A DNA stretch of 64,000 nt from Dioscorea cayenensis subsp. rotundata. Taxonomy: Eukaryota > Streptophyta > Magnoliopsida > Dioscoreales > Dioscoreaceae. The notes beneath the pieces were generated by a model. That model was not told the DNA's origin. It searched no databases and worked only from the letters and a program-made list of their open reading frames with translations. The stretch covers positions 23,754,137-23,818,136 of the forward strand of contig NC_052486.1 of assembly GCF_009730915.1 (NCBI RefSeq), read 5' to 3'. Positions 19,105 to 25,800 of the stretch are shown here, piece after piece. Both the position numbers and the translations under genes were made by a program. Positions within the stretch are counted from its first letter, which is position 1. Every line of letters starts with the position of its first letter.

Positions 19105-21873
19105 CTACAGATATTTTCTGGCGAGAGCCCGAACTTTTGTGTCAAAGTGCGACGATGTAATGCGAGATCCAGGCAAGTAGAGCGGATTTAACAGAATCTG
19201 TTCAAGTAAAACAGTATAAGAAAAAAACACATGGAGATGCTGTTAAAAATCCTTAAAAAAAATATATTTCTGATTTAGATTATTTATGGGATATTCATTA
19301 TGCAATCAGTGAATAGTAATCCACAAAAGAATACTAATATTATATTTTTCGCAATTACATTTCTTGATGATTATCATGGCACATTAAGAAATTAAATACT
19401 TTGTAAAATATACTGTAAGGAGGCCTTACTGTGTCCTTTAAACACACTGAATTATTTTTTTTTGTTTTCCAGCTCATGTTGTATGTTTACATCTGGTTGA
19501 TTTCCTAGAATCAGGCACTAAAAAATCAATGCGAGTGGTGGGATTTGCTGCAAGATGTAAGCATAGTAAATAAAGGTTAGGAATCTTATGGTTGACCATC
19601 AATATATTAAGTCTTGTGCAAGCTAGTCATGGAGGCCTATAGAGTAGTTTAGCAGATGAGAATCAGGTTGATTATTTAAAACTTCTTTTAGTCAAGTTCA
19701 CTCATAATCTAGTTTAACAACTGAGGTTCTCTAAATAATAATCTAAACTCTAGTCAAGGAAAATGAGATACCCTTTTGATAAGGAAAATCAAGGTACATG
19801 GACCATTCTTGGTGTGAATACAGGAAACATATACAGACCTGGGTAGCTACTAAATACTGCAAATACAGAAAAAAATGTACAGCTGGGCATCTGATTATTT
19901 TATATTCCTTATTGGTTCATCCAATCTCTAGCTTTGTTTTAAAGGCAAAAGCTAAAGGTATCACATCAGTAAATTCAAGGCTTTCAAACTAAGGCGGATT
20001 TAGCGATACATATGTTGAAGAACACAATTTGCACTCGTCATGAAAATATACAAGAAATACTATTTCTAGATAGGAAATTCAAAGTTAACAGTCAAAACTA
20101 TAAGAATGTCTTCTCTTTGAAAATATTGCACTTCCAGATAAGTAAGAACATAAGTGGCATTGCTTCTCTCCTAATGATTTGTGTTGAAAGGACTATAATA
20201 AATTATTACTGTCACAACTGGAAGATCAAAAGGATAGCAGTAACATTACCTTTATATAAAGTTCGTGAACCTCTTGAAAGAAGCTTTTAATCCCGTCTTC
20301 ATTGCGTGAATCATGAAGCAACATTAATCTAGTATGTATGACACTGTTTGTTAAGGAAACAAAGGAGACTCAAACAGAAAAAATAATGCAGCACAAACCA
20401 TACATCAACTAAGAGAAATGTTCCCTACTTCTCAGAAATTGCACTCTTGACTTAATAATGAGTTATAAGAACATGAATAATCAATTCTCATTAAAAAGGT
20501 TATGAATGCTTTGGGGAAAACAAGAATATGTCAAATTACTGGACTCACACACTAGACCTGCTGGATGGAATTGACATATTTTGAAAAGGAAGCATATATA
20601 TTACTTTAGATTCAATAGATCTTACTGTGACATGGGATTCTTGTGGCTTGCGATTCAATTAAAGTTTATTAATCCATGACCAATCAAATAGCTCATTTTG
20701 TGGACTTCAGTTTATGATGATTTAAAACTTAAGCTACAGTCATATAACATGACAACAATAAAAGGAAAAAAATCCAAGCATAGGTGGGATATGACCAGCA
20801 GTAACGTAAACTGACACCACCAAATCATTGAACCTGTCCATTGCCTTCAGAAACCTGCATAATCATGTCATCACTGAAATCATCTTCTTAATATTAAAGA
20901 AAAGTGCAGAGAGTTAATCACATAACCATCAACCCATGAAAATGAACAAGATTGAAACTCACATGGCACTTGTGGTCCATGCAAGGTCTTGAACGATATC
21001 CAAGGCAGCATGCAGTATAAACTGGTGCTGGTGAGCTGCTTCTTCTTTCTGCCATATGTACAAGAATATATAAGTGTGATTTAGGTTGTTACACTACCAT
21101 GTTAAGGGTCACCAACCGCTTTAACACCTGGGCGGCTAACACAATCACATTTAATCATGATAGGATAAAAGAATATTTTTTTAATATATGATGCTGAAGC
21201 TTTCCAAAAATAAAGAAGTTTCATTGAAATCAAATGAAGTAGGTAACTAACATCATCTTCCCCTTCAATCTCCTCAATTCCACTCCATTATTACACACAC
21301 TTTTTTCTCTCCACCTTTATGCCAACCAAATGGTATGTTAGGTTAAAAGTTCTTAGGCCAATCTGCTTTTTTCTGTGCTTCTAGATCCAATTATCAGAAA
21401 TTATCTGATACAAATTTGGTCAGAATACAAATAAGCTCTAAGTCATGGTGAAAAAATAATTAAGCCATTCTGTGACTAGGCCTGTCACATTTTTAATTAC
21501 TATTGAATGTCCTTGAACCTTACTAAAATTGGAAAAAAAAAAAAACAGAAATTAATGAAGGAAAACAACTAGGGTTGGGAAAGAAAGCTGAACATTGTCC
21601 ATATAGAAAGAACTATTGAAATACAGCCGAGAGAAAACTGATTAGTCCATTTGATGGTGCTATGAAGTGGGAGTGGCACGCAACAACAGAACAACAGGAA
21701 ACACATATAAAGAAACAAGATAAAAGATAAACAAGCTAAAAACAAGTATTGAAGCAGTGATAAGATTAATCAAGCTGGGCAAAGAAACCTACTTTAATCG
21801 CAGAGCCAACTTCAGCCTCGTATATGGGGATATCATTCCTGCTAACAATGATGAAACATGCTGTAGTCGCCAT
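19105..21873 (-). CDS. TRAPPC2: TRAPP complex subunit 2 (TRAPPC2, sedlin/Trs20)
   Basis: Core subunit of the TRAPP tethering complexes, which activate Rab/Ypt1 GTPases in ER-Golgi traffic (family knowledge). Five coding exons: 21793-21873, 20963-21048, 20793-20854, 20250-20335 and 19105-19197. They total 408 nt, 135 residues, the family's standard length. The longin fold sequence is highly conserved: MATTACFIIVSRNDIPIYEA at the start, HQFILHAALDIVQDLAW, FLKAMDRFNDLVVSVYVTAG, HTRLMLLHDSRNEDGIKSFF, and the end RITSSHFDTKVRALARKYL. The gene probably has a 5' UTR exon near 22264-22480 and an intron ending just before the ATG. Intron 3 needs AT-AC splice sites (see separate entry); the other coding introns are GT-AG. 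It lies divergently to TL29. Confidence 0.96.
20336..20792 (-). other. Probable U12-type AT-AC intron in TRAPPC2
   Basis: The 457-nt intron begins ATATCC and ends in TCATAC in gene sense. With these sites the join reads GGT CAT ACT AGA (G-H-T-R), exactly the conserved TRAPPC2 residues. The GT and AG dinucleotides nearby (GTCATA, and CAG seven bases further upstream) give a wrong frame with a stop. A TTTCCTTAAC match to the U12 branch consensus lies at 20350-20359, about 14 nt from the 3' end, the right distance for the minor spliceosome. No pyrimidine tract is evident, as expected for this class. Confidence 0.88.
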
Positions 21874-22857: not shown

Positions 22858-25800
22858 ATGGCTGCTCCAATCTCCTTCATCTCAACCCTTCCATCACTCC
22901 TGGCTTGGCCTCCCCAGCCTTCTTTCCCTCTGCTCCCCCACAAACGCACCAATGTGAGTGTTTACTGGTAATGAATCTTTGCTTACAGTGTTCTTATCTT
23001 GAATTGCTTTGATTGAAAACAGGGTTCATTTGTTTGCCATCAATCAATGGATGAATCCCAAATCTCTAGTGGAGGTTGTCTGATTAAGAGAAGAGATTTG
23101 GTCGGATGCTTTGGTGCCGCTATGACTGTGGTATGTTACATACTTTTTTAAAAAAAAAAAAAAAATTGTCTTTTTTGTTTGGCTAAGTTGTTTGGATGCA
23201 TTCTAAGCTACCTCTGGGTTTCTTCTCTGTTGGTTGGAATGTGTTTGATAATTTGATTATGATCAATGATATGGTGATGAGTTCTTGCCAGTTTTGATTA
23301 TCTTTACAGGAAGTGATATCAAGTTCAGGACCATTTACAGAAAGAGCTATGGCTGCTGATTTGATTCAGCGAAGACAGCGTTCTGAATTCCAGTGTATGT
23401 TTTATATGTTTGATTGGCTTTAAATAAGCCTGTACATTAATTTTAATCGTTTGATGCAGCAAAAGTAAAAGAAACCCTTTTCACAGCTTTAAAGGTATAA
23501 CTCTTGCTAATTACTCTAGTTCATGAAAATTCAATTGGTTGCATTTTTATATTAGAAAATGTATTTAGTCTGATGCTTGATTGGAAACGGTTTCTTATGA
23601 AGGGATACCCAGAGCTCCTTCCATCCATTCTGACTCTTGCGCTGAATGATGCTATGACATATGACAAGGTCAGCACCAAACTTTAGCACATGACCTTCTT
23701 AGTGACCATCATTTGTGCCAATTGATTCTTTCTGAACTAAGTTTGTAGGCTACAAAATCTGGAGGTCCAAATGGATCAATTCGGCTGAGGTACATGTATC
23801 TCTTCATGGATAGTTATTATGGTCTTTTGGGTAGTGCTTCATTTAAGTATTTCTAGAATTGCTTGCATCGGGTAATTTAACTGGTTTCTTTTCCCTTTTT
23901 TTTCGCATCTTGTTGAAGGTCTGAGATTGGAAGGCCTGAAAATAGCGGGCTTTCTCCTGCAATGGATCTCTTGGTGGAAGCGAAAAAGGAAATTGATTCT
24001 TATTCTAAGGGAGGTCCTATATCATTTTCTGACCTTATCCAATATGCAGGTGAGTTAGCTTTTCAATTTCAGAAAATAATTTCAAGCCTACAAATTTATC
24101 ATGGATATTGATACACACAATTTGTTATCCTGTGGTTGTTAATAATCTAAGGGTAAAATCGGGTGAGTAACTTATTTTATGCTCTTGTCATATGACTCAT
24201 GATGCAAGGACCACCACCTTTTCTCATCTCTTTTAGTTTGAAAATAGAATCCTACATCAACTCTCTTTGGAAAAGAATAACATTAAGGCACGATGGTGGG
24301 CTAAATCCATTCATTCTTTATATTTTGGAACCTCTGATGAGCTTCCCCAGTCTTTGCTGAAGGGGATTTGAGAATTGAGCTCTATGTAGGTAAATTGTTG
24401 CCATACACAGCCCCTGCCTTTTCAACCCTTCACTTCCTATTTCCAAGCTTCTTCTTCCCTCTAAGGATTTTTCAATATATAAAAGGAAAAAAAAAACTCA
24501 TTCTAGTGTTTAAATACAGTGTCTCTATGTATAGTATCTTGTCTGTGAGTTCATTTAGAGTAATGTAACAACTAAACACAATTCAATAATTCTGATTCGA
24601 AGTATTATTTTCTGTGAATAGCCCAAGCAGCTGTAAAGAAAACCTTCTTGGATTCTGCTATTAGGAAATGTGGTGGAAATGAAGAGAAAGGAAGATTATT
24701 GTATTCAGCATATGGCTCAAACGGTCAGGTGCTTTTTGAAATTAAACATCTGCAAGTACTTTTTGTTTGTGAGTCTGGGCTGCTTTTTCACCTTATTCTT
24801 AGTCATGCTCTATACTTGTCCAAGTTCATGGGATTCCTCAAGGATTTTAGATTATCATAAAATGTTTTACCCTCCTAGTAGAGAATAAGCTTAGTCGGGG
24901 CACCTAATTATGCTTTTTGTAATACTTTGTTCTTAGTCTTTTCCTATTTCAATCAGTGCAAGCACTTTTTGTTTCCAGTCAACGGTTAACTAATCCTATT
25001 TTGGTTTTGTTAGCCAACTAGTTTTTATTCAAATCTATTTCTGTTGTTTTTTATACTTCCTGTGTAGACTTCCGCTGTTAGTTTTATTAATTTGTTCATA
25101 AGACATTAGAAAGAAGTGTATTTTTGCCTGGAAGCTGGTTATCATGTGCTTTATTTGTTACTTTTCTTTTTTTCTGAATTTGGTGTTATGTTATAAAATT
25201 GTGACTTGGGTTGTTATTTTGTTATTATATGCCATCAGTGGGGCTTATTTGATAGACAATTTGGCCGAAGTGATTCTGAAAATCCTGATCCAGAGGGGAG
25301 GATCCCCCAGTGGGGCAAAGCTACAGTTCAGGAAATGAAAAATAAGTTCTCTGCTATCGGATTTGGTCCCCGCCAGGTACTTCTTGCATTGTTTAGTATC
25401 AGCATTGATTTAGTTGCTAAGGTTACTGAATAAACTTTTGTTTCATTTATCTTGGTCAGTATTATCATTGAAACTGAAAACTTGAATGATGGATATGATT
25501 TGGTCATTCCATCTGATACAGATTGCTAACATCAGATACCTCTACTAAACTTATTGTACTTTCATGCAAACCACGATTGCTGGCTTCTCCCGTTAGCTAG
25601 CCATTCTTAATTAATCGTTATTCTCATCATTTTGTTAATCAGTTTCATTTGGAACTACAAACATAGTACTTTTATGAAATTATATGTGATTTAAATGATG
25701 AAGGATTAAATCATTTACAGTTAGCTGTGATGTCCGCATTCCTTGGTCCTGATCAACTGGCAACAGAGAAACTCTTGGCATCGGATCCACAGGTTCTCCC

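Follow-up and report, generated by a model that had tools for sequence, protein, structure and literature searches.

A probable U12-type AT-AC intron in the TRAPPC2 (sedlin) gene of yam

The minus strand of the window, the 64-kb stretch of DNA analysed here, carries a TRAPPC2 (sedlin) gene whose third coding intron, at 20792-20336, is very probably a phase-1 U12-type AT-AC intron removed by the minor spliceosome and probably inherited from the ancestor of plants and animals. The gene runs from 21873 to 19105 and contains five coding exons that encode a protein of 135 amino acids. This protein matches Pfam Sedlin_N with an E value of 2.3e-42, and its closest solved structures are sedlin (1h3q, E 8.2e-39) and TRAPPC2 (2j3w), with residues 4-135 covered. 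Coding exon 1 (21793-21873, 81 nt) begins with the ATG at 21873 and ends at the donor AAA/gtaggt, and coding exon 2 (20963-21048, 86 nt) lies between a cag acceptor and a gtgagt donor. Coding exon 3 (20793-20854, 62 nt) ends in GCTGGTC, the last base of which is the first base of the His77 codon. Coding exon 4 (20250-20335, 86 nt) opens with AT ACT AGA, the remainder of His77 followed by Thr and Arg, and coding exon 5 (19105-19197) consists of 90 nt and a TAG stop. The other three introns (1, 2, and 4) are bounded by the usual GT...AG.

Intron 3 (20336-20792, minus strand) is 457 nt long and cuts the His77 codon after its first base (C/AT). Its sequence reads ATATCCCACC...TTTCCTTAACAAACAGTGTCATAC, where the 5' splice site ATATCCCACC (20783-20792) begins with ATATCC, the tail consists of TTTCCTTAAC followed by AAACAGTGTCATAC, and the 3' splice site is TCATAC (20336-20341). 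Reading through the intron leads to a stop after GHIPPMLGFFSFYCCHVI. The AT-AC join predicts an mRNA junction of GGTCATACTAGA / GCTGGTCATACTAGATTA, reading GGT CAT ACT AGA. We infer that this splice takes place, at AT and AC termini, and that the minor spliceosome is its agent: U11 and then U6atac would bind the ATATCC donor, U12 would bind the branch site TTTCCTTAAC, and joining at the AC would restore His77 as C/AT.

Within the 605-nt stretch that opens with exon 3 and closes with exon 4, 60,375 joins were tried, with the first base of the donor at positions 16-140 of that stretch and introns of at least 31 nt. An open frame was kept in 3,470 of these, and only six of the open joins gave the gap-free protein containing GHTR. 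All six are introns of 457 nt shifted relative to each other by single bases, and none of their terminal pairs except AT-AC is a common one. The reference protein for this comparison was itself built with the AT-AC join, so that the independent support comes from sedlin (1h3q), which aligns gap-free across the intron 3 junction, VTAGHTRLMLLHD (GHTR/GHMR). The initial annotation had proposed an AT-AC U12-type intron at 20336-20792 with ATATCC...TCATAC as the pair that yields G-H-T-R exactly, and its boundaries prove right to the base.

It is very improbable that the intron is of the U2 type, with GT-AG or GC-AG ends at slightly shifted borders and a small insertion, deletion, or replacement near the His codon. 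There are 22 GT-AG or GC-AG joins that leave the frame open, for example the GC-AG join 20779/20344, which makes a protein seven residues longer. None of the 22, however, yields a protein that aligns gap-free with sedlin, in agreement with the earlier statement that G-H-T-R is out of reach of GT-AG sites. Among the best 14 of the 22 listed, none gives the conserved protein, and the nearest one keeps the residues on both sides intact but adds seven. A U2-type intron would also make both the ATATCC donor and the perfect branch motif a matter of chance.

The U12-type branch site TTTCCTTAAC (20350-20359, minus strand) is situated 14 nt before the 3' end, the distance that had been estimated beforehand, and matches TTCCTTAAC perfectly. 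Among 20,000 dinucleotide-shuffled versions of the intron, three had a perfect TTCCTTAAC 8-20 nt before the 3' end, and 45 had a copy there with no more than one mismatch. On the two strands of the 64 kb together, the branch 9-mer has a single occurrence. U12-type branch sites are described as TTCCTTRAY lying 10-15 nt ahead of the 3' end (PMC2426677, PMC5932401), with an optimum distance of 11-13 nt (PMC3584512); the 14 nt observed here fall inside the former range and slightly beyond the latter. There is no distinct polypyrimidine tract, as pyrimidines account for 6 of the 14 nt that follow the branch site and for 25 of the last 40 nt of the intron, the branch motif itself included.

The donor matches the ATATCCTT consensus (as given in PMC2426677) at six of eight positions. 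ATATCC at +1 to +6 agrees, and C at +7 and A at +8 differ, just as the initial annotation had the donor leaving the consensus after six bases. Membership in the class of U2-type AT-AC introns was considered and rejected. These introns, known from sodium channel genes such as human SCN4A (intron 21), have AT-AC termini in common with TRAPPC2 intron 3, but they are described as carrying G at +5 (PMC2831892), whereas the yam intron has C at +5 together with a U12 branch site. The same annotation called AT-AC introns rare in plants, which holds only in a relative sense: they are reported to make up 13-26% of the U12-type introns of four plants (PMC7367187) and 4.8% of a larger transcriptome set (PMC5932401). 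The class is already well known; its new member, TRAPPC2 intron 3, is likely to be of ancient origin and has a donor that is mildly unusual. Software that predicts genes with GT-AG introns only would be expected to mis-annotate the TRAPPC2 gene.

The whole genome was also scanned for ATATCC...TTCCTTAAC...AC at two length ranges, with the backward pattern as a control. The scan gave counts similar to this control (12 versus 10 and 8 versus 14). The frame was open across the joined flanks at 4 of 20 loci, and two of these four (L031 and L032) are overlapping matches at one place. As a source of other AT-AC introns the scan was set aside, its counts being close to the control and offering no yardstick. 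This shows that ATATCC, branch, and AC motifs prove little outside their surrounding gene. Since the motifs are no commoner than the control, the evidence for intron 3 rests on their presence at the very place where the protein sequence calls for an intron.

The exact termini deserve separate consideration. Five of the six protein-keeping joins yield one and the same mRNA, since both ends of the intron carry CATA, with the donor-side copy at 20790-20793 and the acceptor-side copy at 20333-20336 (both minus strand); the sixth join (TC-AT) differs by one synonymous base. Because five joins share one mRNA, a cDNA alone cannot prove AT-AC termini: it would exclude the GT-AG joins, but it cannot tell AT-AC from the remaining four. 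An intron of the U12 type with other termini among these equivalent joins (AT-AT, or CA-TA, TA-CA, and TC-TA) would thus produce the same message as AT-AC, but it has very little probability, and AT-AT is reported to be almost wholly missing among conserved plant minor introns (PMC10639083). AT-AC termini, which the mRNA cannot fix, are strongly favored, as no other pair among the five is a common one. In human cells, depletion of CENATAC is reported to affect 92% of the A-type (AT-AN) introns as one class (PMC8280824), so that the difference between AT-AC and AT-AT would be small.

The position of the intron is also that of a minor intron in the human gene. In human TRAPPC2, the variants c.238+1A>G and c.238+4T>C are assigned to intron 4 and c.239A>G (p.H80R) to exon 5 (PMC7260818), and human intron 4 therefore interrupts codon 80 after its first base. 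The human donor is described as the rare AT type of the minor complex, which c.238+1A>G turns into GT (PMC6060985), and the intron is termed U12-type (PMC7644725, PMC3584512). Mutations in this intron are reported to cause a skeletal dysplasia (PMC7644725, PMC6060985, PMC7260818). His77 of the yam protein stands opposite residue 80 of the 1h3q chain, with a 3-residue gap earlier in the alignment. As far as these sources describe the human intron, the two introns thus occupy the same codon of the same gene (His80 in human SEDL, His77 here), and both are in phase 1 with an AT donor, so the codon and phase proposed for the yam intron are those of a human U12-type intron. The yam intron differs in being the third coding intron and has the donor ATATCCCAC; the two were compared on position, phase, and AT donor. 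The human intron ends in AC.

Given the same codon, phase, and AT donor, common descent is the simplest reading, and we infer it here. TRAPPC2 intron 3 is most likely an inherited minor-spliceosome intron. Human intron 4 lies at the same codon base, begins with an AT donor, and is classed as U12-type, and for these reasons the intron probably goes back to the common ancestor of plants and animals. Together, the plant and human introns suggest that a U12-type intron with an AT donor existed before plants and animals diverged. Sources disagree on how common such sharing is. One account names only EXOSC5 and BRCC3 as U12 introns shared between human and Arabidopsis in U12DB, and blames poor tracking over large distances for an undercount (PMC2831892), whereas another gives the position as conserved between human and Arabidopsis for 9% of U12 and 22% of U2 introns (PMC8199999). 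Among the open-licence papers searched, we found none on a U12 intron in plant TRAPPC2. The yam gene would provide a plant counterpart for an intron known mainly through a human gene for skeletal disease.

Three of the five rows of Sedlin_N matches in the genome lie outside TRAPPC2. Read from their sequence, two of these appear to be C-terminal exons of two TRAPPC2L-like genes (L001, G000 C11:6097447, and L003, G000 C14:14234880), and the third (L005) appears to be a TRAPPC4/synbindin-like exon. Stretches of 7.5 and 8.0 kb surrounding the TRAPPC2L-like exons were examined on the gene strand; each has a single U12-like donor, and neither has a branch motif. No second copy of TRAPPC2 intron 3 was found in these 7.5 and 8.0 kb.

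Genes for minor-spliceosome RNAs are present in the same genome. Rfam searches over the 584-Mb assembly revealed a U12 gene (96.1 bits), U6atac at four places (best 87 bits), and U11 (71.8 bits, with E up to 1), the last in a search in which one of 14 control genomes, Synechococcus, matched below the cut-off. U4atac was not found in the assembly by Rfam, but the same search was silent in all 14 control genomes and absence is not implied. The U11 (L013), U12 (L006), and one of the U6atac (L008) genes each have GTCCCACATCG upstream, which we take to be the plant snRNA upstream element. There is also a CENATAC-like gene on C8; CENATAC is reported to promote AT-AN minor splicing in human cells (PMC8280824).

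The CBP20 gene served as a control for an AT-AC intron in this genome. The U12 intron after CBP20 exon 4 is described as AT-AC in ten plants (PMC5932401). In the yam assembly, a 34-nt exon 4 is followed by ATATCCTTTT...TTCCTTAATACAATGCAC, an intron of 1444 nt (C5:22267771-22266328, L038) that ends in GCAC. Like TRAPPC2 intron 3, it has AT-AC termini with a U12-type donor and branch site; unlike it, it carries the full ATATCCTTTT donor, and its branch site TTCCTTAAT is situated 9 nt from the end. At the CBP20 junction, ATATCC...AC/ATAG, the donor and the exon after the acceptor have bases in common, and CBP20 therefore also has more than one equivalent join.

The two donors differ at +7 to +9, where TRAPPC2 has CAC and CBP20 has TTT. 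Pairing was predicted with the snRNAs of the same genome, using the U11 of L013 and the U6atac of L008. In the usual register, U11 is predicted to pair with +3 to +6 only of the TRAPPC2 donor and with +3 to +10 of the CBP20 donor, and the contiguous block predicted for U6atac covers +4 to +6 in TRAPPC2 and +4 to +10 in CBP20. The predicted duplex energies are -4.7 versus -6.6 kcal/mol with U11 and -2.9 versus -6.8 kcal/mol with U6atac, for TRAPPC2 and CBP20 respectively. The difference narrows when a longer piece of U11 is used (-5.2 for TRAPPC2, -6.2 for a consensus donor), because the program then picks another register. The predicted duplex between U12 and the TRAPPC2 branch site is as strong as that of CBP20 (-8.3 versus -7.4). 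By these predictions, CAC at +7 to +9 weakens pairing with both U11 and U6atac; the comparison covers two introns and therefore does not give the rarity of the TRAPPC2 variant.

Slow splicing of TRAPPC2 intron 3 is a conjecture. It is rather unlikely, though conceivable, that the lost pairing at +7 to +9, next to a perfect branch site, makes this a selected slow or retained intron that limits TRAPPC2 output, with recognition leaning on the U12-branch pairing and on the donor-binding proteins U11-48K and CENATAC and not on full U11 and U6atac helices. The shortened donor offers a natural variant for gauging how much trimming of U11 and U6atac pairing can be tolerated.

A divergent reading frame lies on the plus strand of the window (22858-23480), starting roughly 1 kb upstream of the ATG of TRAPPC2. 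It begins with MAAPISFISTLPSLLAWPP and, read by eye, resembles the beginning of a plastid-targeted protein.
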